Origin: a virus
DNA length: 44,051 nucleotides
Strand: one strand, 5' to 3'
Virus record (IMG/VR): IMGVR_UViG_3300043466_002244
Span: 1-44,051 of that record
The notes under the pieces were generated by a model. That model had not been told where the DNA came from and ran no database searches. It saw only the letters and a list, made by a program, of their open reading frames with translations. The position numbers were made by a program, and so were the translations under genes. Below are positions 18,056 through 44,051 of the stretch, in pieces (position 1 is the stretch's first letter; every line of letters starts with the position of its first letter).

Positions 18056-18520
18056 ATGAAAAAGATAGTAAGATTAACAGAAAGTGATTTAACTAATTTG
18101 GTTAAAAGGATAATTAAAGAACAAGATGAAAACGAAGAATATCTTGAAAAATTCAAGATATTAATTGACAATGAACAATTTGAAACGGCATTACAATTAG
18201 GTGAAACATTAGATTTGGAAGACAAAGTTTTGGACTTAATTTTAGATAAAATAGTTAAAGAAGGTGACTTCAAGTGGTGGGTAAAAAAAGTACATTCTGT
18301 AATGAAAGAAAAAAAATATAGGCGGATTGATTCAGCCATTGATGATATAACGTATGAATTTATTGAAAAAGATTATTATGCAAATATATTATATAACATA
18401 ATTAACAATATGACAGACCAAAATAAAACAGATGAATTTTATTTTAAAATGATTAAACTGATATATTCTGAAATAGAAAAACAAATAAAAAAAGATGAAA
18501 AAGATAGTAAGATTAACTGA
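18056..18520 (+). CDS. Tagged helical protein, 154 residues
   Basis: Residues 1-22 are the MKKIVRLTESDL-type tag ending IIKE, a candidate cleavage site. The rest is helical and acidic-basic mixed with no known motif. Its last ten residues (KKDEKDSKIN) are encoded by the leader and tag DNA of the next gene read in another frame, and its stop codon is part of that tag. This suggests that a tag cassette landed on its 3' end. Confidence 0.85.
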   Translation: MKKIVRLTESDLTNLVKRIIKEQDENEEYLEKFKILIDNEQFETALQLGETLDLEDKVLDLILDKIVKEGDFKWWVKKVHSVMKEKKYRRIDSAIDDITYEFIEKDYYANILYNIINNMTDQNKTDEFYFKMIKLIYSEIEKQIKKDEKDSKIN

Positions 18521-18893
18521 AAGTGATTTAGTTAGATTGGTTAAAAGAGTTATTAATGAAAAAAGAAATATGAATGAATACGAGTATTTTTATTATATTC
18601 CAGATTGGTATGGTCCGAATACAATGTTTAATGAAAATGATGAAAAAGTAAAATTGTCAGATTATCCTGAAATTGAAGATGCCTTTAAATTCTTTAATAA
18701 TGAAAATGTTGATATAATAAAACTTAATGAAGACGATAGGGACATGACATTAATTAGAAAAGTACATACGTTCATAGATGACAGCAATAATATTTCTTGG
18801 CCATTCTTCAACGAAAATAGAATCCAAAAAATGTGGATGGAAAAATATTTGAAAAACGGATTAATATTAATAAAATTGAAAAAAAAACGATGA
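18495..18893 (+). CDS. Tagged protein, 132 residues
   Basis: The tag begins MKKIVRLTESDLVRLVKRV and continues to INE at residues 20-22. The body is acidic and aromatic-rich (YEYFYYIPDWYGPN) with no recognised domain. The start lies 26 bases inside the upstream gene. The last residues (ILIKLKKKR) are encoded by the leader DNA of the next tagged gene. Function unknown. Confidence 0.8.
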   Translation: MKKIVRLTESDLVRLVKRVINEKRNMNEYEYFYYIPDWYGPNTMFNENDEKVKLSDYPEIEDAFKFFNNENVDIIKLNEDDRDMTLIRKVHTFIDDSNNISWPFFNENRIQKMWMEKYLKNGLILIKLKKKR

Positions 18894-19339
18894 AAAAGAT
18901 AGTAAGATTAACTGAAAGTGATTTAGTTAGATTGATTAAAAGAGTAATTAACGAACAATCAATAAGTGGAAAAACTTTAGAAGATTTTAAAAAATGGGCA
19001 ATGAATAAACAAAATGAATGTCCAGAACCAACGGACCCTTGGGATAGATATTGCCCCCAAGGAACTTGGAAATATGATACTAGAAATGGGAACATTAGGT
19101 TTTTTTCTGATAAGAATGAAGTTGTTATGGAAACAACTATAATGCCTAATGATGACAAATACAACGGACCTGTGGTTGAGTTACAATATTTAGCAAATTG
19201 GGTATCTAAAAAAAATGTTCCATATTATAATGGTGTTTGGAAATGGGGAGGGGTAAAAGGAGCATGGAGTGCAGGTAATCTACAAAGTGTTAATTTGTAT
19301 GATAACGATAAAAATTTTTTAGGTACTATGACTTTTTAA
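18890..19339 (+). CDS. Tagged protein, 149 residues
   Basis: I start it at the ATG that gives the MKKIVRLTESDL tag; an in-frame ATG 57 bases upstream lies inside the previous gene. The tag ends VINE. The mature part has a four-cysteine-poor, Trp/Gly-rich beta body (GTWKYDTRNGNIRFFSD, WKWGGVKGAWSAG), suggesting a small beta-sandwich or peptidoglycan/carbohydrate-binding fold. A strong terminator follows. Confidence 0.85.
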   Translation: MKKIVRLTESDLVRLIKRVINEQSISGKTLEDFKKWAMNKQNECPEPTDPWDRYCPQGTWKYDTRNGNIRFFSDKNEVVMETTIMPNDDKYNGPVVELQYLANWVSKKNVPYYNGVWKWGGVKGAWSAGNLQSVNLYDNDKNFLGTMTF

Positions 19340-20539: not shown

Positions 20540-20770
20540 ATGAAAGCACACGAAGCTGAAAATTGGACATATCTTCACGCCAAAATGAGAGATGAAGAAT
20601 TTCATTATTGTTTCAAACATTTCTCTAGTTTTGAAGAAATAGAGGATGAAGAGTTCCACAAGTTGAGAAATCAATATTTGGAAACCGCTGAACTATTGGA
20701 AAAGTATATTAAAAACAAATACTACGAAGCCAATTGGGAAGTAGAATATGATGATGAAGATGAAGATTGA
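20540..20770 (+). CDS. Unknown acidic 76-residue protein
   Basis: A helical, strongly acidic protein (FSSFEEIEDEEFHKL) ending in an Asp/Glu run whose codons double as the start region of the SmpB gene. No known domain. Confidence 0.65.
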   Translation: MKAHEAENWTYLHAKMRDEEFHYCFKHFSSFEEIEDEEFHKLRNQYLETAELLEKYIKNKYYEANWEVEYDDEDED

Positions 20771-21176
20771 AAACAAGAAAACCAGATTTGAATATAACTT
20801 CCTTGAAACTTACGAGGCCGGCATTGTATTGACAGGAATGGAAGTTAAAGGTATTCGTCAGGGAAATGTTAATTTAACCGACACTTATTGTTTTTTTAAG
20901 GATAATGATTTGTGGGTTAAAAATATTTTTATATCTTTGGGTAATGATGATAGCAAAAGGGAACGAAAACTCTTGTTAAAGAAAGTAGAACTCAAAAGGT
21001 TAAAGTCAAAGTTAATTAATGGTTTAACAATAGTCCCAACCAAAATCTATATTAATGATAGAGGTTTTGTCAAAGTTGAAATTGTGTTAGCACAAGGAAA
21101 AAAACTTTACGATAAGCGTGAATCTATTAAGAATAGAGATATTGAAAGGGAACTTCAATCAAAATCAAAATGGTAA
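20748..21176 (+). CDS. smpB: SmpB, tmRNA-binding protein
   Basis: The conserved SmpB core is clear: EYNFLETYEAGIVLTGMEVK, here residues 14-33, then RQGNVNLTDTY and the C-terminal KKLYDKRESIKNRD. The length of about 140 residues is slightly below bacterial SmpB (about 150-160). It binds tmRNA and ribosomes in trans-translation. Several in-frame ATGs compete; the one at 20760 gives the most usual N-terminus. No ssrA gene is visible nearby, so it would use the host tmRNA or one encoded elsewhere. Confidence 0.93.
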   Translation: MMMKMKIENKKTRFEYNFLETYEAGIVLTGMEVKGIRQGNVNLTDTYCFFKDNDLWVKNIFISLGNDDSKRERKLLLKKVELKRLKSKLINGLTIVPTKIYINDRGFVKVEIVLAQGKKLYDKRESIKNRDIERELQSKSKW

Positions 21177-25170: not shown

Positions 25171-26871
25171 ATGAAAAAAATATTATTGTTTATTCTCTCT
25201 GTGTTATTCAGTGTTAATGTTTATACACAATCTTGTACATCCACCGTTTATTATGACAATATGGAAACCTTTACTTGGTTCGGTGATTGGTGGACACCAG
25301 CTTTAACTACTGGTTTTTTTACGAATGCTTCAGTATCGGCAAATATTAGTGCTGTAATTTATGGTTCAGGTAATGGTACTTCAGCAATTGAACAAGATTG
25401 GTATTCTCTACCTAATATTACCGGATTAAATCCCGCATATTCATATCAACTAAAGTTTAGATTAGCTTCTTATACCTTTTCTAATTCTACTGCAACAACT
25501 AGAGGATTAGATGTTGCAGATTATTTGAGTGTTCAAGTTTCAACAAATGGGGGTGTTTCTTATGTGACAGAATTAAGAATAACTGGTAACTCAAATGCTA
25601 CTTGGCCATATACTTCAACAGGTACAATTACACATACAGCAAACGGAACATTCACAAACTCAGCAGCACCAACTGGTGATGTTTATCAGGCACCAGCGGG
25701 AGCAACAACAACTGGCCCTTCCACAATTACTTTGAATCTACAACCAAACATCACTCAGGTTGCTGTGGATTTATATTGTCGTGCCAATTCAGCTGGTGAA
25801 GAGTTTTGGATTGATAATGTTGAACTTATCGAAATAATACCAACACCAACAATTACAATAAATGGTGTTAATAGTGTATGTGATGGTACACCAACCACAT
25901 TAACGGCATCAGGCGCTAATACTTATGTTTGGGATGGTGGTATATCTAATGGTGTTTCATTTACACCCACCTCAACAACATCATATTCTGTAACTGGTAC
26001 ATACAATGGTATGATTAATGGTTTGGGTACGAGAAATACTTGTAGTTCAACCTCTTCAACTAATGTTGTGGTTAAACCAATACCAAATATACCAACATTA
26101 AATCCTGATACTACAATATGTCCAAGTGATTTTGCTGTGTTATATGGTTCATCAAATATTGGAACATTACAATGGTACGATGCTTCAACAAGTGGAACAT
26201 TGTTAGGTACTGGATATAGTTATACAACATCGCCCTTACTTAATAATACACCATTTTATGCTGAGGCGGAACTGAATGGTTGTATTAGTTCAAGAGCAAT
26301 GGTAAATGTTTTTGTTGACCCCAATTGTATATTACCAATTTACTTAGCAACCTTTGATGGTCACAATGAAGGTAGAGAAAATCATTTGTACTGGTTAACA
26401 GAACAAGAAATTAATAGTTCACACTTTGAAATAGAGAGAAGTAACAATGGATATGATTTTATTAAAATAGGTATTGTGGAAACTGACCCATCCAAAAGTT
26501 ACAACTTTATAGATAACTCACCTTATAGTGGTTCAAATTATTATAGATTAAAAATGGTAGATTTAGATGAAACCTTTTCATATTCCTCAATCATTTATTT
26601 AGAAACAAAAAACCAAATAGAATCCAAAGTTTATCCCAACCCATTTGAAGATTCATTAATTTATACTTACGAAAGTGAACAAAATGAAGAATTGGAGATA
26701 CAAGTCATTAATATATTAGGACAGAAAGTATTTCAATATAATGTAAGTTGTCAAACTTGTGGAAATTATGTTTCGATTAATACCTCCAATATTCCATCAG
26801 GAAAATATACCATAAGGATAAAACACCTATCATCCTTACACGAGACAATCCAAACAATGATAAAGAAGTAA
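25171..26871 (+). CDS. Secreted T9SS-sorted surface protein
   Basis: A signal peptide (MKKILLFILSVLFSVNVYTQ) leads to a beta-sandwich-like region (residues 25-220) and Ig-like repeats (SVCDGTPTTLTASGANTYVW; CPSDFAVLYGSS). Residues 390-480 resemble a domain often before T9SS tails (LYWLTEQEINSSHFEIERS). Residues 487-566 are a type A T9SS sorting domain (VYPNPFEDSL, INILGQKV, IPSGKYTIRI). It would cross the outer membrane by the host T9SS and be anchored or released at the surface. For a phage this is very unusual. It may modify the infected cell surface. Confidence 0.9.
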   Translation: MKKILLFILSVLFSVNVYTQSCTSTVYYDNMETFTWFGDWWTPALTTGFFTNASVSANISAVIYGSGNGTSAIEQDWYSLPNITGLNPAYSYQLKFRLASYTFSNSTATTRGLDVADYLSVQVSTNGGVSYVTELRITGNSNATWPYTSTGTITHTANGTFTNSAAPTGDVYQAPAGATTTGPSTITLNLQPNITQVAVDLYCRANSAGEEFWIDNVELIEIIPTPTITINGVNSVCDGTPTTLTASGANTYVWDGGISNGVSFTPTSTTSYSVTGTYNGMINGLGTRNTCSSTSSTNVVVKPIPNIPTLNPDTTICPSDFAVLYGSSNIGTLQWYDASTSGTLLGTGYSYTTSPLLNNTPFYAEAELNGCISSRAMVNVFVDPNCILPIYLATFDGHNEGRENHLYWLTEQEINSSHFEIERSNNGYDFIKIGIVETDPSKSYNFIDNSPYSGSNYYRLKMVDLDETFSYSSIIYLETKNQIESKVYPNPFEDSLIYTYESEQNEELEIQVINILGQKVFQYNVSCQTCGNYVSINTSNIPSGKYTIRIKHLSSLHETIQTMIKK

Positions 26872-27649: not shown

Positions 27650-29272
27650 ATGAAAAGAATACTACAAGAAAAGAAGATAATTGAGATACTGAAAGAATAC
27701 AACAACAAGTATGGTGTATTGTTAGAAGCATCTAAACTCAAAATATTAACTGATAAAGTTGGTTTCAGTGAACCAATCGCAAAAATATTCGATGAATTAT
27801 GTGGCCCTTTAGCTATATGGATGGCCAACAAATTATACAAACATTATGTTCAAAGAACTAAGAGTTATAATGTGGAAGGTAATATGACTCCACAAGAAAT
27901 AAAAGAGTTTACTATTAGTGAAATTAATAAAATACATACACCAACATTAACTAGAATTATTATTCCAATGATGGATTATATCCGTGTTGGATTAAATGGA
28001 AACAAGTCATCACTTGAAGATGATAAATGGTCAGAGATTTTTGAAAAACAAAAACAATGGCATGATAGTTTAGGTGTAGGTGAGGGAAAAATCAACTATA
28101 TTGAAAATGCTCCAATTTTAATTGATTTTAGGAATGAAGATGGTGAAGGTTTTTATTGGGCTGATTTGAATGTTAAAAACTCCCCTGAAGAATGTGAAAG
28201 AATGGGTCATTGTGGAAGAAGTTCATATGGATATCTATATTCATTAAGGAGTGATAAAAAGTTACCAGGAGGAAAGTTTAAGATAAATAAAAGTCATGTT
28301 ACAGCTTCAATTGGAACTGATGGAATATTATATCAAATGAAAGGGCCTAGAAATGAAAAACCAAAAGAAGAGTTTCACAAATATATACAACCATTATTCT
28401 ATCTTTTAGGTGGTGGAGGTGAAGAGGATGATTATTTAATCCAAGGTTTTGGAACTGAATATGCCGCACAACAAGATTTCAAACTTACAGATTTACCAAA
28501 CCAAACAATAAGAGAACTTTATAGTAATAGACCTGAATTATTCAATACAAGAAGTTTACAAAGAAAATTAAGTGAGATGGGTATTGTTGAAGTTCAACCA
28601 CTACAAACAACATTTACATTAGAAATAGACCCAAAAGATGTTGGTGATTATTTATCAGGTGACTATGTTTATAAAACTTATGGTAGTGCAAAAGACCAAA
28701 AAGTAAAAAGAGTGTATTTCTATGAAACAATAATGTCTGATGACGCTTGGGAAATGTGGGATAACTATGATGCAGATTGGAAATCCGCTTTAGAATATAA
28801 TGTAGATTCAGAGAACGAAAAGAAAATTGAGGAAATCATCAATAGTATGATAGAAAAACAAGGTGGTGAAGTTGATGAAGATATGAGTTTGGTTGATAAG
28901 ATTGAAGAATATGATGAAAACTATGATATAAGAAATGCTATTAGTAGTAGTATTAATGAAGTTGAAAGTAATGAATATGTCAAATACTTAAGAGATACCA
29001 TCAAAGATGCCTTAAATGAACTTGGTAATGTATTTGAGTTTACTAATGATAATATCAAAATACAAGTTGATTTGAATGATTTTGGCTTTCCTGAAGATGA
29101 ATTGGACGAATACTATGAAAATTGTTATGATGACCCAGCTTGTGTTTTTAGAGAATTGGTGAGTGAAGATAATATTGATTTACCAAAACCAAGTTTCGAT
29201 GACAGATGGTATCCAAGTATTGATGAAGATGACTTCAATCAATATTTAAGTGACAGATTATACGATATATAA
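27650..29272 (+). CDS. Tagged PcfJ-like protein, 540 residues
   Basis: I start at the ATG after the promoter box. The N-terminus (MKRILQEKKIIEILKE, then VLLEAS) looks like a variant tag with ILKE and LLE sites. About residues 175-250 contain ERMGHCGRSSYGYLYSLRSD, then HVTASIGTDGILYQMKG and NEKPKEEFHKYI, resembling the core of PcfJ-like proteins of conjugative elements and phages. The acidic C-terminal 200 residues are unassigned. PcfJ function is unknown; its presence on transferred elements supports a role in DNA entry. Probably packaged; inference. Confidence 0.8.
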   Translation: MKRILQEKKIIEILKEYNNKYGVLLEASKLKILTDKVGFSEPIAKIFDELCGPLAIWMANKLYKHYVQRTKSYNVEGNMTPQEIKEFTISEINKIHTPTLTRIIIPMMDYIRVGLNGNKSSLEDDKWSEIFEKQKQWHDSLGVGEGKINYIENAPILIDFRNEDGEGFYWADLNVKNSPEECERMGHCGRSSYGYLYSLRSDKKLPGGKFKINKSHVTASIGTDGILYQMKGPRNEKPKEEFHKYIQPLFYLLGGGGEEDDYLIQGFGTEYAAQQDFKLTDLPNQTIRELYSNRPELFNTRSLQRKLSEMGIVEVQPLQTTFTLEIDPKDVGDYLSGDYVYKTYGSAKDQKVKRVYFYETIMSDDAWEMWDNYDADWKSALEYNVDSENEKKIEEIINSMIEKQGGEVDEDMSLVDKIEEYDENYDIRNAISSSINEVESNEYVKYLRDTIKDALNELGNVFEFTNDNIKIQVDLNDFGFPEDELDEYYENCYDDPACVFRELVSEDNIDLPKPSFDDRWYPSIDEDDFNQYLSDRLYDI

Positions 29273-29307: not shown

Positions 29308-29958
29308 ATGAGAACGAACTTAAATGAAAGTGTAAACCAAATGTTGAAAAATATGGGTTTAGAAACAATAACTGAAGCTCGTATGAGTAGACAAGCTGTA
29401 AGAGAAGTTGTAAGAGATATAATAAAGATATTAAAAAGAGGTGAAGAAGGTTCTTTTATATTACCTGAGAACCCCGATGAAGATTTTTATTCATTTAATA
29501 ACTACCCAGTTCAATTTAGTGTTGAATTACATTTAGTATTCAATCCTAATACTTTGAGGTTTATGACAAATGGAAGTTATAGTTTGGAAGATGATGTTGT
29601 TGAAGTAAAAATAATAGTTAATCCAAATAAATTGGAAGGACAATTATATGAGATTATAGAAGAATTAAACAATCTTATTGCTCACGAATTGGAACACGGA
29701 TTACAAGAGTATCACGGGGAATTCAATTTAACTAGAAAAAAGAAAGAAAAAAAAGGTAAGAAATATTATATGTCACCTGAAGAATTGGGGGCACAAATAC
29801 AAGGATTTAGAAGAGTGTCAAAACTACAACAAACTCCATTTGAAGATGTTGTTAGAAAGTGGTTCAAAGACAATCGTGAGATTCATAATATGAATCAAAA
29901 AGATGAAGAAAAAGTAATCCAAACCATATTAGATTACCACGAAGAAAAATACGGATAA
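29308..29958 (+). CDS. Tagged zinc-metallopeptidase-like protein
   Basis: The start (MRTNLNESVNQMLKNMG, then ITEAR) matches the MMG-type tag with a possible cut after ITE. The mature part has HELEH at residues 126-130, a zincin HExxH motif, followed by PEELGAQIQGF, whose Glu could be the third ligand. The same arrangement occurs in the last third of the protein at 37337. The 216-residue size fits a minimal zincin. It might cut a host or virion protein on entry, but activity is unproven. Confidence 0.82.
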   Translation: MRTNLNESVNQMLKNMGLETITEARMSRQAVREVVRDIIKILKRGEEGSFILPENPDEDFYSFNNYPVQFSVELHLVFNPNTLRFMTNGSYSLEDDVVEVKIIVNPNKLEGQLYEIIEELNNLIAHELEHGLQEYHGEFNLTRKKKEKKGKKYYMSPEELGAQIQGFRRVSKLQQTPFEDVVRKWFKDNREIHNMNQKDEEKVIQTILDYHEEKYG

Positions 29959-30033: not shown

Positions 30034-32862
30034 ATGAAAACATTATTATCGTTATTATTCGTTTTACTTCCCCTCCTCTCTTATTCACAAAATGTATTAT
30101 TTGGTAAAGTAATTGATGCAACAACTGAAGAACCTTTGGTTGGTGTAACAATTATTATAAAGGGGACATCAACAGGTGTGATTACCGATTTTGATGGAAC
30201 ATTTTCAATTACAACAGAATTGGACACGATTGATTTGGTGTTTTCCTATATATCATATCAAAAGATTACAATAGAAAAAATCTCACTAGTTGGTGACCTG
30301 ACAAGTTTGCCTGATATCTATATGAAAGAAGATATTTTACAGACAGGTGAAGTTGTGATTACAGCTGATAGGATTGTAAAAAATGAAACAGCATTAATTG
30401 ATATGAAAATGGAATCCAATATCTTATTGGATGGTATCAGTTCTGAGAAAATGAAAAGTACTGGTGACAATAATGCGGTTGATGCAAGTAAAAGAGTTAC
30501 AGGAGTTTCAGTCGAAAGTGGTAAATATGTTTATGTAAGAGGATTGGGTGATAGATATTCCAAGACATTATTAAATGGAATTGAAATACCAGGTTTAGAC
30601 CCAGATAGAAACTCATTACAGATGGATATCTTCCCAACCAATTTACTGAATAATATTGTCGTATCAAAAAGTTTTTCACCTGAATTACCTGCTGATTTTA
30701 CTGGTGGATTGGTTAATGTGGAAACAAAAGATATACCTGAAACAAGTCAAGGTTCTTTCTCATTATCATTAGGTTATAATCCCCAAGTTCACTTCAATCC
30801 CAACTTCATAAGTGAAAAAGGTTCAGCGACTGATATATTGGGATTTGATGGTGGTTTAAGAAGATTACCTGACGAATTGAATAGAAGTTATATCCCAACC
30901 CCATTTAACAAACCATCAAATATCAGTTCAACACAACATCAACAAAACATAGTCAATTTGTTAAACAGATTGAATCCTGTATTAGGGGCTACAACTGATT
31001 TAAGTATGATTGATTTCGGTGGTGGTATATCTTATGGTAAAACAAATAAGAACTTTGGATATATCTTATCAATCAATCATAAAACTGATTACAAGTTTTA
31101 TACTGATGTAAAGTATGGTGAATATCAAAGGTCATCAAATCATAATGAGAATGAATTGATATATGCAACCAAACAATCAGGACAACTTACTGAGATTAAT
31201 AACTTCTTGGGTGGATTAGTTGGGTTTAACTATACCAAAGGTAAGAGTAAATACAAACTAAATCTTATTCATTTACAGAGTGGGGAAAGTAGAGCAGGTG
31301 TATTCAATATAACTAACAACTCAAATGCCGTTGGACAATCAGGTTATGAAGCCAAATCATATAACTTGGAATATAACCAAAGAGGTTTAACCAATTTATT
31401 ATTAAGTGGAAAACATAACATCAATGATTGGAATGTTGATTGGAAATTATCCCCAACTTATTCTTCATCAGTTGACCCTGATATTAGAAAGACACCATTC
31501 AGTTATGATGGAACATATACATTCTCATCTGGTGAAGCTGGTAATCCATCAAGGATATGGAGAAACTTAAGTGAGTTTAACAATAATGTTAAAGTTGATG
31601 TATCCAAACAATTTAATAACTTCAAATTAAACTTTGGTGTATCACATTCATATAAGTTAAGAGATTATAGTATCAAGTTATATGAATTGATGTTTTCCAA
31701 ACCGCAATCTTGGACAACACCAGACCCAAATCTTGTTATGAGTACGGAAAACTTATATCCAAGTGAGATTAATGGAACATATATTCAATCTGGTAATGTT
31801 AACCCAAACCCAAATCAATATTCATCAAATGTGAATAACACTGGTGTATATGTTTCAGGTGAATATAATATTAAAAATAGATTCAAAATTAATGGTGGAT
31901 TAAGAGCTGAATATTTTATCCAAAGACATACAGGAAGAGATATAAGATATGCCAATGGTGATATGAATGGAAACAATCTTAAAAATGATATTGTATTAAA
32001 TACATTTCATTTATTTCCATCTACTAACTTAATCTATTCAATAACCCCAAAACAAAATCTTAGATTATCATATAACAGAACAATTGCCAGACCATCATTC
32101 AAGGAAATGTCTTATGCTCAAATATTAGACCCAATCACAAATAGAATATTCAATGGAGGTTTATTCAGTTATAACGGAACTTGGAATGGTAATCTAAGAG
32201 AAACGAATATTGATAACTTGGATTTGAGATGGGAGTTGGCCAAAGATAAGGATTTTTACTCTGTATCAGGATTTTATAAACACTTTAATAACCCAATTGA
32301 ATTGGTAAGAATACCTGAACAACAAACATCAACGGAATATCAACCAAGGAATGTTGGAAATGGGGATTTATATGGAATTGAGTTTGAGTTAAGAAAATCG
32401 TTTCTAAAGAACTTTTCTTTCAATACCAATGTCACCATTGCTCAATCCAAAATAACAATGACAGAGACAGAATACCAAGCAAGGAAACAATATGAAAGAG
32501 ATGGTGAGAACATAAACAATACCAGAGTTATGGCCGGACAATCACCATTTGTTATTAATACTGGGTTATCTTATAATGTCGAAAAGATTGGATTAAATGT
32601 GGGTGTGTTTTATAATGTTAAAGGACAAACATTATCCATCGTTGGAACAGGATTATCACCTGATATCTATGATGAACCATTTCACTCATTAAACTTATCT
32701 GTAAGTCAAAAGATTAAGAATACATCAATAGATTTTAGAGTACAAAATATTCTTAATGATAGAGTGGAAAGTTTTTATCAATCATATAAAGCTGAAAAAC
32801 AAATATTCAATTCAGTCAATCCTGGTGTGACATTTACATTTGGTGTAAGTCACAAGTTCTAA
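30034..32862 (+). CDS. TonB-dependent outer-membrane receptor
   Basis: A signal peptide (MKTLLSLLFVLLPLLSYSQ) is followed by a carboxypeptidase-D regulatory-like domain (residues 20-105; GKVIDATTEEPLVGVTI). A plug domain follows at about 125-235 (RVTGVSVESGKYVYVRGLGD; LPADFTGGLVNVETKD). The remaining 700 residues are barrel strands, ending in an aromatic residue (GVSHKF). The 942-residue frame is intact. It would import a ligand across the host outer membrane with TonB energy. It lies between tagged phage-type genes and has a late-type promoter, so it seems part of the phage. Receptor replacement, nutrient uptake or superinfection exclusion are possible roles. Confidence 0.95.
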   Translation: MKTLLSLLFVLLPLLSYSQNVLFGKVIDATTEEPLVGVTIIIKGTSTGVITDFDGTFSITTELDTIDLVFSYISYQKITIEKISLVGDLTSLPDIYMKEDILQTGEVVITADRIVKNETALIDMKMESNILLDGISSEKMKSTGDNNAVDASKRVTGVSVESGKYVYVRGLGDRYSKTLLNGIEIPGLDPDRNSLQMDIFPTNLLNNIVVSKSFSPELPADFTGGLVNVETKDIPETSQGSFSLSLGYNPQVHFNPNFISEKGSATDILGFDGGLRRLPDELNRSYIPTPFNKPSNISSTQHQQNIVNLLNRLNPVLGATTDLSMIDFGGGISYGKTNKNFGYILSINHKTDYKFYTDVKYGEYQRSSNHNENELIYATKQSGQLTEINNFLGGLVGFNYTKGKSKYKLNLIHLQSGESRAGVFNITNNSNAVGQSGYEAKSYNLEYNQRGLTNLLLSGKHNINDWNVDWKLSPTYSSSVDPDIRKTPFSYDGTYTFSSGEAGNPSRIWRNLSEFNNNVKVDVSKQFNNFKLNFGVSHSYKLRDYSIKLYELMFSKPQSWTTPDPNLVMSTENLYPSEINGTYIQSGNVNPNPNQYSSNVNNTGVYVSGEYNIKNRFKINGGLRAEYFIQRHTGRDIRYANGDMNGNNLKNDIVLNTFHLFPSTNLIYSITPKQNLRLSYNRTIARPSFKEMSYAQILDPITNRIFNGGLFSYNGTWNGNLRETNIDNLDLRWELAKDKDFYSVSGFYKHFNNPIELVRIPEQQTSTEYQPRNVGNGDLYGIEFELRKSFLKNFSFNTNVTIAQSKITMTETEYQARKQYERDGENINNTRVMAGQSPFVINTGLSYNVEKIGLNVGVFYNVKGQTLSIVGTGLSPDIYDEPFHSLNLSVSQKIKNTSIDFRVQNILNDRVESFYQSYKAEKQIFNSVNPGVTFTFGVSHKF

Positions 32863-32900: not shown

Positions 32901-33197
32901 TTAAAATTTACCAAATCCTTTATTTTTAGGTTTCACACATCTTTTAAGTAACTCACCAATATAATATGATAATTTTTCTTTTTCATCCTCATCTAAGGTA
33001 TCTTCATCCCAAATTAAGTTATCAAAATCATAAAGTTTATTTTGAATTTCATCCAAATCTGATTCATCTTTATCCAAATCTGATTCAATTTTACTTAACA
33101 TTTTTTTATAACTCTTCATAGATTCTTCATCCTCTTTGATTACTCTTTTAACCAATCTAGTTAAATCTCTTTCAGTCAATCTTACTATCTTTTTCAT
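32901..33197 (-). CDS. Tagged small acidic helical protein, 98 residues
   Basis: The tag MKKIVRLTERDLTRLVKRV and following IKE are nearly the same as in the three genes at 18-19 kb, also at DNA level, 14 kb away and on the other strand. The mature part is an acidic coiled coil (MLSKIESDLDKDESDLDEI). It may be a linker or inhibitor-like internal protein. Function unknown. Confidence 0.85.
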   Translation of the reverse strand: MKKIVRLTERDLTRLVKRVIKEDEESMKSYKKMLSKIESDLDKDESDLDEIQNKLYDFDNLIWDEDTLDEDEKEKLSYYIGELLKRCVKPKNKGFGKF

Positions 33198-36340: not shown

Positions 36341-37333
36341 ATGAAACTACAAAAAATTATCAGAAACATTTTGATGGAAGAAACTACTTCAATTAGTAAA
36401 GAAGTTGAATATCTACTTGGGAATCAAATCTATGTTGACGAGATATACAAACAATTAAGAGAAATACACCAAAACAATTCAAGAAATAACAAAGAAAATG
36501 TTCTAACATTCATCCAAGTTTTCTCAAAAAAATTAGATACCTTTTTTAATCAAATATTTTTAACAGGAACAAATGCTGAAAAGATATTAAATCTAATTAA
36601 CAAAACATCAAATTCAGAGGTATCTCCATTATTAGAAAGTGAATCAACTAGTAGTTTGGGGTTTGAAAAGTTTAATGAGTATTTTAAGTATATGTACTAC
36701 TTGTACAATGATATTCAAAAAGTTGTAAACGAAATCAAAGAAACCCCAACATCAGATATCAATACTTTGAAACCAAAAATTGAAAGATATTACAATTTAA
36801 CAATCAAAGATAACAACTCAATGTTAGAGTTAATAAAAGCATTATTCCAATATCTTAAACAAAGTTATGGTAATATAAGTTCAGGTCAAACAACCAAGTC
36901 AACTGAAACACAAGGAGGATTTAATATTGATTGGAGTACCAAACAAATTGTTAAAAGATATAGTGACTCAACAATAATATTCTTATCACCAGAAAAAGTA
37001 TTGGAAAGAGTTGGTAAAGATATGGGTTCAGGTTTTGATATAAGAAATCAAGGTGTAAGAATTGGGGATAGATTAGAAAAGGCAATGGAATATCTGAAAA
37101 ATCCAAATGTCGAAGCATACCAACCAACAATGTTATATGTTGAAAGTTTTGAGTATGATAAGAATAGTCAAAAACAATATTATGATGTACCAAAAATTGG
37201 TATAAGTGATGGAAGACACAGATTATTAGCAGCATACAACTTAGGACTTAAAAGTTTCCCATTCGAAGTTTTCAACAGAGATGAAGAACAACAAATTAAG
37301 GACTTAAAATATTTGGAATCAACATTAAAGTAA
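36341..37333 (+). CDS. Tagged ParB-like protein, 330 residues
   Basis: The tag MKLQKIIRNILMEE has LME at residues 11-13. Residues 20-200 are helical and unassigned. The C-terminal third has a ParB/Srx-like core: FDIRNQGVRIGDRLEKAMEY, then a strand (PTMLYVESF), then ISDGRHRLLAAYNLGL with the DGxHR phosphate-binding motif. Three such proteins occur in this operon, all tagged. Likely a nuclease, kinase or CTPase activity on host or phage DNA; which one is unknown. First gene of the eight-gene operon. Confidence 0.82.
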   Translation: MKLQKIIRNILMEETTSISKEVEYLLGNQIYVDEIYKQLREIHQNNSRNNKENVLTFIQVFSKKLDTFFNQIFLTGTNAEKILNLINKTSNSEVSPLLESESTSSLGFEKFNEYFKYMYYLYNDIQKVVNEIKETPTSDINTLKPKIERYYNLTIKDNNSMLELIKALFQYLKQSYGNISSGQTTKSTETQGGFNIDWSTKQIVKRYSDSTIIFLSPEKVLERVGKDMGSGFDIRNQGVRIGDRLEKAMEYLKNPNVEAYQPTMLYVESFEYDKNSQKQYYDVPKIGISDGRHRLLAAYNLGLKSFPFEVFNRDEEQQIKDLKYLESTLK

Positions 37334-37336
37334 TAT

Positions 37337-39250
37337 ATGAAACTACAAGAACAAATAAATAGAATACACGAAATGATGGGACTTCTTACTGAAGTATATA
37401 ATCCTAATGAGGTTCGGTACAAATATGTCGATGAAAAAAAAATAGTTACGTCAGAAAAATTTGACGAATTGAAAAATACATTCAAGGAATACCAACAATT
37501 CATATGGATTTTGAAAAAATTAGAATCAAATTGTATTTCGTATAATAAAATACCTGATTTTGTGGAATATTTCAAAATTTTCGATAAACATAAAAAAAAT
37601 TTTCCAATAAAAGATTTAGGTCAGATAAAAACTTGTTCAGATGTCAAAAATTTTATTTCAATATCAAATGAATTAATTGATAAAATTTCATTTGAAGATG
37701 AACATTTTATAAATTTTTCTGATATCAAAAAACTAAATGAAAATTTTATTGAATATATGGGTGTCCATAGTGGATATCAAGTTTTTGTAATTCCTCATCT
37801 TGACTATAATCTTGAGTACGAATACATGTATGAACCTATGTACAAAGCATACAAGAATATATTGGGGGATTGTGAAAATCGTAATAGGAATAATTATGTT
37901 AGATTTTGTACATTAACAAATAAACGAAAATTTGTAGACTACATAAATAAAGATTATCTTGTTGTTTTCCATCAAAAAAATAATCCTGAAACTCCCATAC
38001 AAATTAGCCCCTTTTATGACTCAGAGTGTAAAAACAAAAATAATAAATTCGATGAATTTTCAGATACTTGTGAACAACTAATGAAAATAGCAAGAGATTT
38101 AGCACCAAAAGCTCAAAATAATTTTCTTGAAAAGTTATCGAAAAAAGAAGAGGAAAAAGAATTGGAAAAAAGAAAAAAAGAAGAGGAGGAAAGAAAAAAA
38201 GAAGAGGAGGAAAGATTGGCTTGGACTGAAAACATAACACAAGCAAAAATAGATGAATTAGAAAGTATTTATGCTCCCTCAATAGTGGATTACGGATTGT
38301 TTGAAAAAATGGTAAAATTGTATCCAAATTATGAAAAATTGAGTTGGTTATTGAAAAGAATGGAATTAGGTTGTATTTCATATTATGATGTTGAAAATTA
38401 TATTGAATATTTCACAACCTTTGAAAATAAAAGAGACCTCTATCCAATCAAAAATTTAAAAAATATTAAAATTTGTGATGATGTTTATGAATTTGTTAGG
38501 ACATCCAAAAATTTGAAGAATTCAAATTTGAACGAACAAATAAATAGAATACACGAAATGATGGGAATATCCAAGGATGTTTTGACTGAAGGAAGATATA
38601 GTCAAACCATATTACAGATTTGGAGAGATATAAAAAGAGAGTTAATGGATTTCATCAGGGATGAAGAATCAACAGAACTTGAATGGGAGGAAGAATATTT
38701 CCAAGAAGAATTCGACTATGAAGATTTTATGGATGATGAAGAATATGATGACGAAGAGGAGGAAGAACAGTATTCAACAACTACTTTTACTGTGAGGCTT
38801 ACAGCTATAACTGAAGATATACGCACACCATATGATATTCATGCTGAACAAAAGTGGGACGATGAAGATAGCATAGATGTTGTTAATTTACAGATTTATA
38901 TTGATACGAATTTCAAGATGGAGAATCTCAATAAATTGTTTGCTGAGTTAAAAGATGTATTAAGACACGAAATAGAACATTTATATCAATCTGAGAATCC
39001 ATATAAAAAGGTCGAAGAAATACCCACCGATACATTTGCCGAAGAAGTATTAACACCAAAAGAAAAGGATGCTTATTTACAAGGTTTTTATACTCAGGCA
39101 AAAACAAGGAAAATGAAAATGGATGATATTATCGATGAATGGGCGGATGAAAGAGAAGAATTATTCAGTTCAATTGAGGAAAAAGAATATGTGAAAAAAG
39201 AATTGATTAAACACGGAAAGAAATTATTACCACAAGCAAAATGGAGATAA
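37337..39250 (+). CDS. Fusion of two tagged proteins with zinc-peptidase end
   Basis: Residues 1-20 are an MMG-type tag ending LTE. A helical module (about 40-115; FIWILKKLESNCISY) is repeated at about 330-390 (LSWLLKRMELGCISY), separated by a Lys/Glu-rich linker. A second complete MMG-type tag lies inside at residues 398-418, again ending LTE before Gly-Arg. After it the sequence resembles the whole 29308 protein: HEIEH (544-548) and LTPKEKDAYLQGF. A prohead protease could free the peptidase part. A TTG at 38528 could also be an internal start. Confidence 0.85.
   Translation: MKLQEQINRIHEMMGLLTEVYNPNEVRYKYVDEKKIVTSEKFDELKNTFKEYQQFIWILKKLESNCISYNKIPDFVEYFKIFDKHKKNFPIKDLGQIKTCSDVKNFISISNELIDKISFEDEHFINFSDIKKLNENFIEYMGVHSGYQVFVIPHLDYNLEYEYMYEPMYKAYKNILGDCENRNRNNYVRFCTLTNKRKFVDYINKDYLVVFHQKNNPETPIQISPFYDSECKNKNNKFDEFSDTCEQLMKIARDLAPKAQNNFLEKLSKKEEEKELEKRKKEEEERKKEEEERLAWTENITQAKIDELESIYAPSIVDYGLFEKMVKLYPNYEKLSWLLKRMELGCISYYDVENYIEYFTTFENKRDLYPIKNLKNIKICDDVYEFVRTSKNLKNSNLNEQINRIHEMMGISKDVLTEGRYSQTILQIWRDIKRELMDFIRDEESTELEWEEEYFQEEFDYEDFMDDEEYDDEEEEEQYSTTTFTVRLTAITEDIRTPYDIHAEQKWDDEDSIDVVNLQIYIDTNFKMENLNKLFAELKDVLRHEIEHLYQSENPYKKVEEIPTDTFAEEVLTPKEKDAYLQGFYTQAKTRKMKMDDIIDEWADEREELFSSIEEKEYVKKELIKHGKKLLPQAKWR
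38528..38590 (+). other. Internal copy of the MMG-type tag
   Basis: The DNA for NEQINRIHEMMG is almost the same as at the gene's own start (37337). It marks the junction between two once-separate tagged genes. Confidence 0.8.
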
Positions 39251-40644
39251 GAAATATAATAAAAAGAATACTCAAAGAATCCCATGCAGAAAAAGTTCAA
39301 AAAACTTTGGACAAGTATGGATTAGTTACCACATTAAAAATGTTTGGTAATGATATCAATAGATTGTCTAATATGTTACATATGACAGAAAAAGAATTAT
39401 TAGAAAAATATAATCCTTTCGAAACAATTTTTACTGATGAAGAATTCGAAAATTCGTTATTTGACACAATGTCTTGGATGAGAGAAAGACCTGGTACATT
39501 TTATCCTAGATTGAAAAATAATCCAATGGATAATGTTATTGAATTTATTATTGATGTTACAATTGATGATTTCCATTCCAAATTAGTTAATTTTGAAACA
39601 ACAGAATGGATAATACCTGATACACCAAAATTATTGTATTTGAAATTTGGAGATTTGTTAAAAAACAATAGTTTCTTCAAAAACTTGTATAAACAATACA
39701 GAACAAATACAGAAAAATTGGATGAAGAAATGTCTGAGTATGCAAGAACCTTGAAAAATGCAAGACAACAAGGTGCAGGTCTAAGATTTCCAAAGTCAGC
39801 AATCAAAGCTAACCCCAATCGATTTAGACCCTATAATAGAGAAGAAATTGATGAAGCTGACCCCAAAGTTGGTACTGGTAAAAAACCTGAAGGTTCTAGT
39901 AGAAGGTTATATACTGACGAAAATCCAAAAGATACAGTTTCAGTTAAGTTTAGAACCAAAGAGGATATTGTTGATACCTTGAACAAAGAAAGTTTCAAAT
40001 CAAAACCTCACAAAAGACAATCTCAAATCATTAATCTTATTCATCAAAGGGTGAGAGCTGCTTATCAAAATGCCAAAGACCCTGAGACAAAGAAAAGATT
40101 GAAAAGAGCTTATGATTATATCGAAACACAAAAAGAAAAATCAAAACAAAAGACAATAAGATTACAAAAAGAAGGTTTACACGATACATTTTGGGAAAAT
40201 GATGAAGGTGATAGAATTACTCTTATTGATTTATTAGACGCGACTAAAGATATTCCAATTAAAAAGATACCAGTAGAAAAGTTAAAGTCAAAACTATTAT
40301 CATGGGATGGTGATGAAGATGAAATAAAAAAAATAGATAAGGCCGATTTACAATATCCAATACTAATATTTGTTGAAGACGATGGTTCATTTATATCAAT
40401 CATAGATGGTCACCACAGAGCACAAAAAGCAATAAGAAAAGGGTTAGAAACAATCAAAGCAAAGATAATACCAATCAATTCACTTCCTAAAAATATTAGA
40501 AAAGTATTCAGTCATATGGGAAAACAAGGGGAAATCAGAGAGGGTGAATTAACAGAAAAATGTTGGCCTGATTATACTCAAAAAGGAATGAAAACAATGT
40601 TTGGTAAAAGATATCCTAATTGCGTTAAAAAGACAAAGAAATGA
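39241..40644 (+). CDS. Tagged ParB-like protein, 467 residues
   Basis: The tag MEIRNIIKRILKES contains ILKE. Residues 18-60 are the helical module (LDKYGLVTTLKMFGNDI) also seen after tags at 42654 and 43712. The middle is basic and helical. The C-terminal third has PILIFVEDDGSFISIIDGHHRAQKA, here read as IIDGHHR with its preceding strands, a ParB/Srx-like core. The end CWPDYTQKGMKTMFGKR...PNCVKK is a C-terminal motif I associate with phage proteins, possibly a metal or docking site. It overlaps both neighbours. Confidence 0.82.
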   Translation: MEIRNIIKRILKESHAEKVQKTLDKYGLVTTLKMFGNDINRLSNMLHMTEKELLEKYNPFETIFTDEEFENSLFDTMSWMRERPGTFYPRLKNNPMDNVIEFIIDVTIDDFHSKLVNFETTEWIIPDTPKLLYLKFGDLLKNNSFFKNLYKQYRTNTEKLDEEMSEYARTLKNARQQGAGLRFPKSAIKANPNRFRPYNREEIDEADPKVGTGKKPEGSSRRLYTDENPKDTVSVKFRTKEDIVDTLNKESFKSKPHKRQSQIINLIHQRVRAAYQNAKDPETKKRLKRAYDYIETQKEKSKQKTIRLQKEGLHDTFWENDEGDRITLIDLLDATKDIPIKKIPVEKLKSKLLSWDGDEDEIKKIDKADLQYPILIFVEDDGSFISIIDGHHRAQKAIRKGLETIKAKIIPINSLPKNIRKVFSHMGKQGEIREGELTEKCWPDYTQKGMKTMFGKRYPNCVKKTKK

Positions 40645-40958
40645 AATTAGAACAAACCATAAGAAGAATATTGAGGGAAGAAACTCAAAAGGATTTATCA
40701 CCAATCCTTGAAAATCTGTTAAATAAACTATTAGTTAAACATAATAAAGATATTTTATGTGGTGTTGAGGTTGTACAATCTGTTGATGGAGAAAGTTATG
40801 AAGTAACATTTACATTCATCGTTCATAGAGGTAAAGTATCGTTTTATGCCAAAGAAAAACACGATTCAATAATGAACGAAGCTTGGGATTTGGTTTACGA
40901 TTTTACCAACCAAACAATAGTTATGAAATCAAAATATGTAAGAACCTGTAATGAATAA
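40641..40958 (+). CDS. Tagged protein, 105 residues
   Basis: The tag MKLEQTIRRILREE contains ILRE. The body is beta-rich (CGVEVVQSVDGESYEVTFTF), with a helix at about 80. No known domain. It is coupled by ATGA to the upstream gene and overlaps the next one by eight bases. Confidence 0.82.
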   Translation: MKLEQTIRRILREETQKDLSPILENLLNKLLVKHNKDILCGVEVVQSVDGESYEVTFTFIVHRGKVSFYAKEKHDSIMNEAWDLVYDFTNQTIVMKSKYVRTCNE

Positions 40959-41334
40959 TATACAACAAACCATAAAAAGAATATTGAGGGAAGAATATAC
41001 TGATATTGGTGAAAGAACCAAAATGGAAAGGTATATATCAAAACAAGTGGAAACAGATTTACCTGAAACAATCAAAAACGACAATTATTATGGTGTTGTT
41101 GTTGATATTTATGACACTGATTATGGAAAAGTTTGTAGGATTTCAGTTTTATTCAAAAGACCTTTTACTGAGAATGAAGCTGATGAAGTCCATAATAAAA
41201 GAAGAGAAATACAAAAAACAATTAGAGATTTAGTACAAGATTTTTTCAAAGGTGGTATATCTATGGGTGTTTCTACCTTAGATTCTTATAACGATACTTC
41301 TTGGTATTATGAATCAAAAAAGACAAAGAAATGA
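40951..41334 (+). CDS. Tagged protein, 127 residues
   Basis: The tag MNNIQQTIKRILREE contains ILRE. The body (YYGVVVDIYDTDYGKVCRIS) resembles the 105-residue neighbour in strand order, so the two may be distant paralogues. Its last residues, KKTKK and stop, are encoded by the same DNA as the end of the 39241 gene. Confidence 0.82.
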   Translation: MNNIQQTIKRILREEYTDIGERTKMERYISKQVETDLPETIKNDNYYGVVVDIYDTDYGKVCRISVLFKRPFTENEADEVHNKRREIQKTIRDLVQDFFKGGISMGVSTLDSYNDTSWYYESKKTKK

Positions 41335-42278
41335 ACCTAAAACAAACAATAAGAAGAATATTGAGGGAACAAACTGAATCAGGTGGTGGTATTTTTTATC
41401 ACAACTCAGATTATGATATCAATTCATTTAACACCCAAATCAATAAAGACAAGAGAACTAACTATCTTTTCTTCAGTAATGAACCAAACACATTTATCGA
41501 CAGGAAATATACATATAAAGTTAAATTACAATTTGACCCCAACAAAATATTCAACACCTTCAAACATATTAATGATTATGGTATAAAATATACCTTGGAA
41601 GATTATAAAGATGAAGTATTAGAATTGTTTGAAGACAACCTAAGTTACTTTCTAAATGAATGGGAAAAAACTGGTGTGGATAGCATAAATGAAGTAATGG
41701 AATATTATATTGATGCTGGTGGAGATGAAGATGATATGGTGGGATTATTATATTATTTTTTAACCAAGTTCAATGATTCTTGGGCAATCTTGGAAACAGA
41801 TAAGTTTTTAGATTTCATAGAGTCAAAAGGTTTTAATGGTTTTGTAACACACGAAGAAGGATTGATTAATATTGCTTGTAAAGATTTCAAATCAATAGAA
41901 ATACTTGGAAAGAAAGAAATGTGGTCAGATGATGGCGAAGGCGTGAAATCATTAAAAGAAGATTCAAACAGAAAACTATTAGCATTCCAAAAACTAATTG
42001 ATAAATCTATAGATGGTATGAAAAAGGACTGTGAATTAGATAGTATAGATGATAGGAACATATCCATAGATACTTGTGATTTTTTAGAAGCATTAGTAGA
42101 AGCAAAAGTTGTAGATATTACGAGTGACAACACAATTCAAATTGTAATAAAATACTCATATCTTAGATATATTGACGAAAATCAATTTATATATGAGCTG
42201 AAACACGAATTGAAAAAATATGGTAATGTTAAAATAGATGTTATTGACTCAATCAACATACATAATAGACAATGGTAA
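41331..42278 (+). CDS. Tagged ADP-ribosyltransferase-like protein
   Basis: The tag MNLKQTIRRILREQ contains ILRE. The mature part starts IFYHNSDYDINSFNTQ, then NYLFFSNEPNTFIDRKYTYK and VKLQFDPNKIF. Further on come FIESKGFNGFVTHEEG and ACKDFKSIEIL. This order (YH...S start, phenylalanine-serine segment, long variable region, GFDG-like loop, final strand) is that of ART-fold phage proteins. The C-terminal 110 residues are another domain. T4 Alt is an ART protein packaged with a cleaved N-terminal tag, so the parallel is striking. Catalytic residues are not certain. Confidence 0.7.
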   Translation: MNLKQTIRRILREQTESGGGIFYHNSDYDINSFNTQINKDKRTNYLFFSNEPNTFIDRKYTYKVKLQFDPNKIFNTFKHINDYGIKYTLEDYKDEVLELFEDNLSYFLNEWEKTGVDSINEVMEYYIDAGGDEDDMVGLLYYFLTKFNDSWAILETDKFLDFIESKGFNGFVTHEEGLINIACKDFKSIEILGKKEMWSDDGEGVKSLKEDSNRKLLAFQKLIDKSIDGMKKDCELDSIDDRNISIDTCDFLEALVEAKVVDITSDNTIQIVIKYSYLRYIDENQFIYELKHELKKYGNVKIDVIDSINIHNRQW

Positions 42279-42279
42279 T

Positions 42280-42657
42280 ATGAACTTACAAGAACAATTA
42301 AATAGAATACAAGAAATGATGGGGATTGATTATAAATTAATTCCAACTGATGAACTCAGAAGACCAAATGGTTCAGTAGGGACACAAGGATTTACTCCTG
42401 AATCAATGGTTAGTTTATTAAAGCATATATCAAATGAAGAAAATTTTGACTTACCCAATTTTAATTCATTTAAAGATTTGATACTCAAATTAAGAGAAAT
42501 GCCAGAAATTATTGAATCAATATACAAATATGTTAAATCTGACCCAGTATTATTAATTAAATTACCTGATGATACTTATCATTTAAAAGATGGAAATCAT
42601 AGAGCAAACCTATTAAATTTGTTAAATGTTGATAAAATACCTGCAATTGTAAAATGA
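42280..42657 (+). CDS. Tagged small ParB-like protein, 125 residues
   Basis: I start at the ATG that gives MNLQEQLNRIQEMMG; the open frame continues upstream. The remainder is a minimal ParB/Srx-like domain ending LPDDTYHLKDGNHRANLL, with DGNHR as the key motif, then a last strand (IPAIVK). No clear (I/L)xE follows the tag. It is coupled to the next gene by an ATGA overlap. Confidence 0.8.
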   Translation: MNLQEQLNRIQEMMGIDYKLIPTDELRRPNGSVGTQGFTPESMVSLLKHISNEENFDLPNFNSFKDLILKLREMPEIIESIYKYVKSDPVLLIKLPDDTYHLKDGNHRANLLNLLNVDKIPAIVK

Positions 42658-43145
42658 ACCTACAAGAACAATTAAATAGAATACAAGAAATGATGGGGGT
42701 AAATGAATCAATATCACCCAAAGATAAAATGATTAATCTAATTGAAAAAAAAGGATTAATCGAATCTATCAAATTATTTGGTGTTAATAATGTTGCCAAA
42801 ACACTTGACACCACACCAATTGATTTGGCCAAAGATTTCTTCATTGATAAAGAGTTCTCAATAAAAGATTTTGAAATTAAAACTGGTGGATATGATTTTA
42901 ATTTTATGATTACAGATATTGATTGGGGAATGAATGATACTTGGGCTGTATATGTAAAAATATTAAAGGGTGAAGTTACACTAATTTTAATTGATGGTGA
43001 AACATATGACTTATGGGACTCTGATTTGTGGGAAAAAGATTTTTGGTGGGAAATACAAAGTGAAATAGATGATATTATTTATGATATTGTTGTACCATTT
43101 ACACCAATGAAAATAGATTTAGATATAAATCATAATTTGAGATAG
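42654..43145 (+). CDS. Tagged protein with K-Y-G module, 163 residues
   Basis: The tag MNLQEQLNRIQEMMG is followed by VNE. Residues 22-60 are the helical module (LIEKKGLIESIKLFGVNNVA) shared with 39241 and 43712. The rest is an acidic, Trp-rich beta body (FMITDIDWGMNDTWAVYVK). Function unknown. Last gene of the operon, with no terminator before the convergent neighbour. Confidence 0.82.
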   Translation: MNLQEQLNRIQEMMGVNESISPKDKMINLIEKKGLIESIKLFGVNNVAKTLDTTPIDLAKDFFIDKEFSIKDFEIKTGGYDFNFMITDIDWGMNDTWAVYVKILKGEVTLILIDGETYDLWDSDLWEKDFWWEIQSEIDDIIYDIVVPFTPMKIDLDINHNLR

Positions 43146-43712
43146 TTACAATTCCCTCTCCTTAAAATCCTCTAAACTTTTTACAATAATATCATATGTT
43201 TTTGGAATATAGATTTCCCTAAACCAATCCATCAATTCATTAGCATTTTCAAATGATTTAGGACAATCGAATTCGTGTAAATAATCATTAATAGTTTCAA
43301 ACTCTTTTTTATCCTCAGGTGAGTAAATTGGAGTTACTTCAACATTAAACATATCAATAGGTGTATTATTACCATCCCAATATGGTGTAGCATAAACAGA
43401 TAATCTATAATAGTTTTCTTCATCCATAAAATTACAATCCCATAAAACAACCCCTTCCAAACCTGAATAGTGTAAAGTACAATTTTTGTATTCTTTATTT
43501 TGATTAACCAAATCTCTGAGTAAATCACCAACAACAATTTCGTTTTCACTATGGAATGTATCTCCTTTAATTGGTAAACCACTAAGTTCAGCTAATTTCA
43601 ACTTATCAATACCAATCATTTTGGCAGTATCAACAAAACCATATTTTTTGATACTCACTTTCATTTTTTGGATAAACTTATCCATTTGATTTTCTGTAAT
43701 TATTATTTTCAT
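43146..43712 (-). CDS. Tagged protein with K-Y-G module, 188 residues
   Basis: A MKIIITENQMDKFIQKMK start resembles the MKKI-type tag, with ITE at residues 5-7. The K-Y-G module follows (IKKYGFVDTAKMIGIDKLKL), then a beta-rich body (LEGVVLWDCNFMDEENYYRL) and a helical end. It parallels the 42654 protein, whose stop codon is immediately adjacent on the other strand. The start overlaps the stop of the gene upstream on this strand. Confidence 0.8.
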   Translation of the reverse strand: MKIIITENQMDKFIQKMKVSIKKYGFVDTAKMIGIDKLKLAELSGLPIKGDTFHSENEIVVGDLLRDLVNQNKEYKNCTLHYSGLEGVVLWDCNFMDEENYYRLSVYATPYWDGNNTPIDMFNVEVTPIYSPEDKKEFETINDYLHEFDCPKSFENANELMDWFREIYIPKTYDIIVKSLEDFKEREL

Positions 43713-44051
43713 TAGTCGTAATATAATGTTCCCCTAATATCAACCATTTCTTCAATTTCATTGGGGTCGTATTTATCCAATAATGGGGTTCTCAATATAC
43801 TCATAGTTGAACCAACAAACTTTAAGTTACCCAAATCTTCAACCTGAGAATCAATTAAGCTAAACCAATCACCAACATACTCCAAGTTACCCAGTGTTTC
43901 GATTTTACTTTTACTTAAATCAAGATACTTTTCAACCTTTCTCAATTCACCCAATGATTTAATATTTTCGGTAATATCTACATCATTACCTCCCCAAAGA
44001 TAACCAATTTCTTTAAGATTACCCAAACTTGTAACCTTTGTGGTCTCCAAT
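43712..44051 (-). CDS. Leucine-rich-repeat-like protein, cut by window edge
   Basis: The frame is open to the window end, so the N-terminus is missing. Visible are at least four repeats of the form SLGNLKEIG, TLGNLEYVGDWFSLIDS, DLGNLKFVG, spaced about 20 residues apart. They match the repeats in the tagged protein at 3204. A short tail follows. Probably the missing start carries a tag as well; that cannot be seen here. Confidence 0.8.
   Translation of the reverse strand, partial: LETTKVTSLGNLKEIGYLWGGNDVDITENIKSLGELRKVEKYLDLSKSKIETLGNLEYVGDWFSLIDSQVEDLGNLKFVGSTMSILRTPLLDKYDPNEIEEMVDIRGTLYYD

Follow-up and report, generated by a model that had tools for sequence, protein, structure and literature searches.

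We analysed a 44,051-nucleotide stretch of viral DNA (the window), which is the entire IMG/VR record IMGVR_UViG_3300043466_002244; the record is linear and therefore represents a fragment. Between positions 36341 and 42657, seven open reading frames (ORFs) lie on one strand, nearly all of them overlapping (starts at 36341, 37337, 39241, 40641, 40951, 41331 and 42280), and an eighth follows at 42654. All are tagged: each begins with a short leader of one of two classes that are related to each other, class I (MxLxxxIrRILrEe) or class II (MnLqEQlNRIqEMMG), set in front of the body of the protein. An earlier note had read the bodies of this region as the domains of a polyvalent protein divided into single genes, each with a tag of its own. 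Genes are named here by their start positions, an arrow marks the boundary between a leader or module and what follows it, and G and L numbers are our handles for contigs and loci. The array and the gene that adjoins it are composed as follows.

36341 to 37333, plus strand: tagged ParB-like protein, 330 residues; class I leader MKLQKIIRNILME↓E (36341-36379); C-terminal DGRHR module.
37337 to 39250, plus strand: two-unit tagged protein, 637 residues; class II leader ending LLTE↓V, N-terminal unit, internal class II tag (38528-38590) ending VLTE↓G, and HExxH domain (38591-39247).
39241 to 40644, plus strand: tagged multi-module protein, 467 residues; class I leader ending RILKE↓S, EIDE↓ADPKV before a YTDEN module (from 39856), ParB-like DGHHR module (from about 40174), and ELTE↓KCWPDY module (from 40558).
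40641 to 40958, plus strand: tagged protein with no assigned fold, 105 residues; leader ending RILRE↓E.
40951 to 41334, plus strand: tagged protein with no assigned fold, 127 residues; leader ending RILRE↓E.
41331 to 42278, plus strand: tagged two-domain protein, 315 residues; leader ending RILRE↓Q, domain with an ART-like motif (to about 41960), SLKE↓D junction, and C-terminal domain (41961-42275).
42280 to 42657, plus strand: tagged ParB-like protein, 125 residues; class II leader; DGNHR.
42654 to 43145, plus strand: tagged protein, 163 residues; class II leader.
43146 to 43712, minus strand: protein with a class IV leader (MKIIITENQMDKF...), at the border of a class IV array on the opposite strand, which runs on into an overlapping contig.

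A third class of leader (class III, MKKIVRLTESDLtrLVKRvInE) heads four genes elsewhere in the window, and a fourth (class IV, MKIIITExQ) is likewise found outside the class I/II array. The last 6,999 bases of the window (37058-44051) are 98.9% identical to contig IMGVR_UViG_3300042868_010462 (G001, 147,874 bases), which appears to extend the same or a closely similar phage beyond the window's right end; at G001 136897-141786, tandem class IV leader genes (MKLIITEEQYRLLIE...) face the class I/II array end to end. The window itself carries no head genes; these are located in G001, which encodes a T4-type prohead protease (Peptidase_S77, E = 7.5e-24), a T4-type Gp23 capsid protein (E = 1e-64), and portal-like and terminase-like genes. 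A small opposite-strand ORF among the portal, terminase, protease and capsid genes (G001 58031-58222) fits, in position and sequence, the bS21 gene of large Bacteroidetes phages. On these grounds the window appears to be a piece of a large, T4-related phage that infects Bacteroidetes. Peptidase_S77 and Gp23 were both present in 18 of the first 22 tag-bearing contigs (G001 and 17 others). One 269-kb contig (G008; L281, L284) holds two S77 and two Gp23 genes, perhaps through duplication or because two phages were joined.

The tags are real and recur beyond chance. Among the genes of G001 and the window, 77 pairs of N termini scored at least 35, compared with 0 for shuffled sequences and 7 for internal stretches, and 37 of the 241 genes of at least 75 residues in these two records (about 185 kb) match one of five leader classes. 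Strict patterns for classes I to III gave 11 matches in the window, 8 in G001 and 0 in 80 random IMG/VR stretches (616 kb in total); a translated search of cultured phages for the tags themselves gave no matches. Conservation acts at the level of the peptide, since third codon positions vary more than second ones in all three classes tested. Promoter-like motifs upstream showed no clear difference between tagged and untagged genes.

Degenerate tag patterns run against IMG/VR found class II in 12 stretches, class I in at least 119 and class III in at least 120; among the matches listed, tag-bearing contigs reach 412 kb and several carry more than one class. After removal of the tags, at least 254 representative bodies remained (at least 85 residues, 45% identity threshold), and 159 of the 193 body clusters among the matches listed were singletons. 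The same body can stand behind different classes of tag. The HExxH body of the window follows an internal class II tag (VLTE↓GRYSQ), and it forms a separate tagged gene behind class I in L017 (LNE↓GRYSE) and behind class IV in L012 (IITE↓GRYSQ) and L060. The body of 36341 is found under a class II tag (L012:3052) and a class I tag (L060), that of 42654 under class I leaders (L029, L105 and L120), and the ParB body of 39241 follows VINE↓GLHDT after class II (L075, L073 and L127) and class III (L046) leaders. In L011 a zinc-ribbon-like body has a class I leader, and in L012 a class II leader. Leaders thus appear, from these comparisons, to exchange between bodies.

The leaders end in a motif with a known counterpart: T4 gp21 cleaves after L/I-X-E (PMC9026906), and in T4 a 10-residue leader is sufficient to get a protein packaged and is itself a gp21 substrate (PMC9026906, PMC10229621). 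To test the motif in class III, tags were picked by their first 12 residues only. Of the 165 tags so obtained, 157 have Glu at position 22 and 149 have Leu or Ile at position 20, with 148 ending in L/I-X-E; position 21 varies freely, and conservation drops sharply beyond position 23. In 18 of 19 relatives the propeptide of the capsid protein also terminates at L/I-X-E, mostly as LINE↓A (the remaining one reads LVTE), and a scaffold-like protein shows the same cut motif as the major capsid protein.

The motif also recurs within longer proteins. Of 117 non-redundant junctions at which a tagged body lies inside such a protein, 75 carry L/I-X-E no more than 4 residues away from the point that corresponds to the body's start, compared with 12.4% at shifted positions (p = 4e-39). 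Among the 97 junctions that have no tag-like stretch upstream, 56 still carry the motif, and the histogram of its position peaks at zero. The window offers VLTE↓GRYSQ in 37337, EIDE↓ADPKV and ELTE↓KCWPDY in 39241, and SLKE↓DSNRK in 41331, the last of which aligns with TINE↓DNKK and LFE↓SNK of free-standing tagged copies; in L022 and L198 the C-terminal domain of 41331 stands alone as a tagged gene. This placement suggests that the fused proteins are precursors whose modules the prohead protease separates. The C-terminal module of 39241-40644 (CWPDYTQKGMKTMFGKRYPNCVKK) shares up to 82% identity with a module of modular cyanophage proteins (L003-L007), some of which lie near neck and terminase genes, and L/I-X-E directly precedes modules of this type in four of the five cyanophage copies examined.

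Reasoning from the tags, the motif, the tag exchange, and the protease and capsid genes of the overlapping contig, all evidence at the level of sequence, we infer packaging, cleavage, injection and an effector function: it is likely that the tags are capsid-targeting leaders and that the bodies are packaged, trimmed by the S77 prohead protease after L/I-X-E, and released with the DNA as early effectors. The amphipathic leader would bring its protein into the prohead core during head assembly, where the phage's T4-type protease would cut after L/I-X-E and free the body inside the head; cuts at internal L/I-X-E sites would separate the modules of fused proteins. The freed bodies (ParB-like, peptidase-like, ART-like, and many of no assigned function) would exit with the DNA and act early in the new host. 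With leaders of this capsid-targeting look, the bodies would probably share the task proposed for polyvalent proteins, namely packaging and injection.

Tagged genes also lie outside the array.

3204 to 4556, plus strand: 450-residue protein; class IV-like leader MKKIIIAESQAKNLIKILKE↓Q.
15462 to 17135, plus strand: DHH-like phosphoesterase; leader MKKQLIKE↓SGIRD.
18056 to 18520, plus strand: class III tagged protein; leader ending KRIIKE↓Q.
18495 to 18893, plus strand: class III tagged protein; leader ending KRVINE↓K.
18890 to 19339, plus strand: class III tagged protein; leader ending KRVINE↓Q.
27653 to 29272, plus strand: 539-residue protein that the earlier note had called PcfJ-like; short leader MKRILQEKKIIEILKE↓Y.
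29308 to 29958, plus strand: HExxH protein, homologous to the C-terminal part of 37337; diverged leader ending TITE↓A.
32901 to 33197, minus strand: class III tagged protein; leader MKKIVRLTERDLTRLVKRVIKE↓D.

The DHH protein and eight homologs have leaders that differ in sequence, yet each leader finishes with L/I-X-E, either exactly where the conserved body begins (SG(I/L)RDI in most) or right beside that point. We take the MxxKYxQFINE leaders of homologs in uncultured phages of 635-642 kb (L008, LR756502; L009, LR745206) to be similar to that of T4 internal proteins. We considered, and dropped, the idea that NYFRNIIKKIMKG at the end of the DHH protein is a C-terminal tag, as it is not common to the homologs. 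Elsewhere in the window, three large signal-peptide proteins (30034-32862, 25171-26871 and 5364-6626) resemble host-type surface proteins (TonB-dependent-receptor-like, with a C-terminal sorting domain, and lipoprotein) within this phage fragment, and the ORF at 20748-21176 may encode SmpB, the tmRNA-binding protein. Rfam and tRNA searches of the window gave no matches.

The domain content proposed for the bodies held in part. The tagged array at 36341-42657 is confirmed; three of the members ascribed to it, the DHH protein, the 'PcfJ-like' protein and the HExxH protein 29308, lie far outside. DGxHR motifs are present in 36341 (DGRHR), 39241 (DGHHR) and 42280 (DGNHR), while their ParB assignment remains weak by profile (phrog_723, E = 0.019; PF08857, E = 0.015, on a homolog); a strong match of a DGxHR protein is to phrog_17560 (E = 2e-15), a family without a function. 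Of the two proposed zincins, the motif is present and the zincin fold is putative: the HExxH domains of 37337 and 29308 are homologous, with H, E, H and the later Glu (E159) invariant in eight sequences. The predicted structure of 29308 (pLDDT, a per-residue confidence measure, 72.8) matched viral models at best with a TM score of 0.61, to proteins without names; against the PDB nothing was significant, the lower hits including IrrE, SprT, M48 and one polyvalent-associated protein. In 41331 an ART-like motif is present, with no significant Pfam or PDB fold match and a model whose ART half is largely of low confidence. The DHH assignment has a Pfam match below threshold (E = 0.006), and Pfam finds no PcfJ in 27653, where DUF2087 (E = 0.097) is the sole match. 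Most tagged proteins are single units, as proposed; the division is not a clean one of one domain and one tag, because fused versions exist (37337, with its second, internal tag, 39241 and 41331) that carry the prohead-protease motif between modules.

Wider searches returned little. No tagged body of the window passed the Pfam cut-off, the sole window protein to do so being an untagged GIY-YIG protein (738-1385). Profile and fold searches of the PDB with the HExxH, ParB and ART-like parts, a check proposed in the earlier note, gave nothing significant, and hits such as hemagglutinin were judged to be chance. Across 148 tagged proteins, family matches were few (single cases of ART-PolyVal, GNAT, DUF2237, an endolysin family and a ParB C-terminal family), and PADLOC gave just five weak single matches. 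The ART-PolyVal case is a standalone, class I tagged protein of 159 residues in G012 (PF18760, E = 2e-12), beside other class I genes, one of them with HHELAHW.

Several observations weigh against capsid targeting. Most tagged bodies match nothing, and structure predictions yielded no significant PDB match. L/I-X-E is short and common by itself, occurring within residues 9-36 of 82 of 204 untagged proteins (40%) and 28 of 37 tagged ones (76%); the search patterns for classes I and II contained Glu, so that their agreement with the motif is not independent support. A junction in the window, LQKE↓GLHDT, departs from the L/I-X-E pattern, and internal sites could be relics of gene fusion. Peptidase_S77 is present in 24 of 51 tag-bearing contigs, and in 17 of the 19 longer than 140 kb, and also in 4 of 30 random contigs, a small difference per megabase, so that it is not diagnostic; because random contigs carry it too, we dropped it as a discriminator and treat its presence purely as a consistency check. 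We found no virion proteomics for this phage group.

The tags might instead be docking peptides that gather proteins at an intracellular site, such as a replication complex or a host target, without packaging. Amphipathic helices often mediate binding, and class I and class III tags have high helical moments; docking leaves unexplained, however, why the same strict L/I-X-E terminus recurs in tag classes unrelated to each other, in the capsid propeptide and at module junctions, and we consider it improbable. Less credible still, and in our view very unlikely, is that the tags are recombination or translation-start cassettes that help new genes to spread or be expressed, with a peptide that has no role. 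Tandem, nearly overlapping genes with exchanged bodies do suggest shuffling, and third-position diversity in class I is fairly low (0.26), but second codon positions are more conserved than third in every class tested, and a tag also lies inside ORF 37337, where no start is needed.

It is unlikely that the bodies serve as structural or scaffolding parts of the particle rather than as injected effectors, though the related cyanophage modules adjoin neck and terminase genes, and the scaffold-like protein and the major capsid protein share the cut motif. Unlike conserved structural genes, the bodies are highly diverse, as the non-redundant set and its singletons attest, and some belong to enzyme families (ART-PolyVal, GNAT, DHH). 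The earlier note's own proposal, a polyvalent lineage broken into single genes, draws on an overlap in kinds of domain: zincin, ART, ParB, GNAT and lysozyme domains are all in the published repertoire of polyvalent proteins, which hold 2 to 15 domains per polypeptide, with zincin domains thought to separate them (Iyer et al. 2017, PMC5512222). DHH and PcfJ are without mention there, no window protein matched ART-PolyVal, a DdrB-type relation of the DGxHR bodies to polyvalent proteins is without support, and nothing we saw points to a large ancestor from which the bodies descend; we therefore doubt this lineage strongly. The accompanying idea of a modular solution to the same task fares better, in that the leaders look capsid-targeting and tagged relatives include ART-PolyVal, GNAT and endolysin-like proteins, while fused versions exist and common ancestry is not supported. 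Domain overlap of this kind, read from sequence, supports a shared task and not shared descent: both systems would inject mixed enzymatic domains, but the tagged one consists mostly of separate tagged genes, with separation predicted to proceed via the prohead protease, and its multi-module members (37337, 39241 and 41331) are small.

The nearer parallel among known systems is the internal-protein/Alt system of T4 and not a broken-up polyvalent protein. T4 IPI, IPII, IPIII and Alt, all processed by gp21, carry a short N-terminal leader with an L/I-X-E end on unrelated bodies, and the protease and capsid families (S77, Gp23) are the same; IPI inhibits a restriction enzyme, IPIII is needed on one host strain, and Alt is an ADP-ribosyltransferase that carries a propeptide. 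The phage described here differs in the number of tagged genes, in its five leader classes, in leader exchange and in L/I-X-E between fused modules, and its packaging is predicted. The inner-body and ejection proteins of phiKZ and SPN3US likewise belong to large phages in which many head proteins are cut after Glu by the prohead protease, and two SPN3US paralogs have an identical 15-residue N terminus (PMC5694885); the phiKZ motif is S/A-X-E, however, and SPN3US propeptides often exceed 100 residues, whereas the tags here span 8-24 residues and end in L/I-X-E. DarB and the other Dar proteins of P1 are head-packaged antirestriction proteins, DarB with a capsid localisation signal (PMC9024508); DarB is a single 250-kDa protein with its own signal, and no common swappable leader is involved.

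Among nearer relatives, the bS21-encoding Bacteroidetes phages (PMC9723584; up to 331 kb) share the same gene set (terminase, portal, protease, major capsid protein and opposite-strand small gene) and have predicted Bacteroidetes hosts, but the word 'tag' is absent from that paper, whose accessible portions do not describe these leaders. The cultured Flavobacterium phage vB_FspM_immuto (NC_055915), whose host is Flavobacterium sp. LMO8, encodes Gp23 (43% identity over part) and a prohead protease. It has no class I-III tags by the strict pattern and has three repeated N-terminal leader families of its own that end in or near L/I-X-E (L387-L389), including MKKQILSEQF..AGIITE↓S twice and M..NFDLKKFLVENKLT..L(L/K)E-type leaders three times, and leader sets may therefore be lineage-specific. 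The available part of the paper on Flavobacterium LMO phages, which covers genera other than that of immuto, contains no virion proteome.

We lean towards the view that large Bacteroidetes phages use an open packaging code, in which interchangeable leader classes and L/I-X-E sites make any gene virion-delivered, either alone or as a multi-module precursor separated by the protease. A limited check of the openly accessible literature found no description of these leaders in Bacteroidetes phages. T4 packages just a handful of internal proteins, and the roles of most injected phage proteins are poorly known. If capsid targeting is right, a single signature would pick out candidate injected proteins by the dozen in each phage genome, and hundreds of families overall, most without a known relative, so that the leaders would reveal, directly from sequence and in a testable way, hundreds of injected proteins without known function. 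It would also point to a second route by which phages deliver multiple activities into a host, through separate tagged genes or junction-cut precursors as opposed to one giant polyvalent protein.

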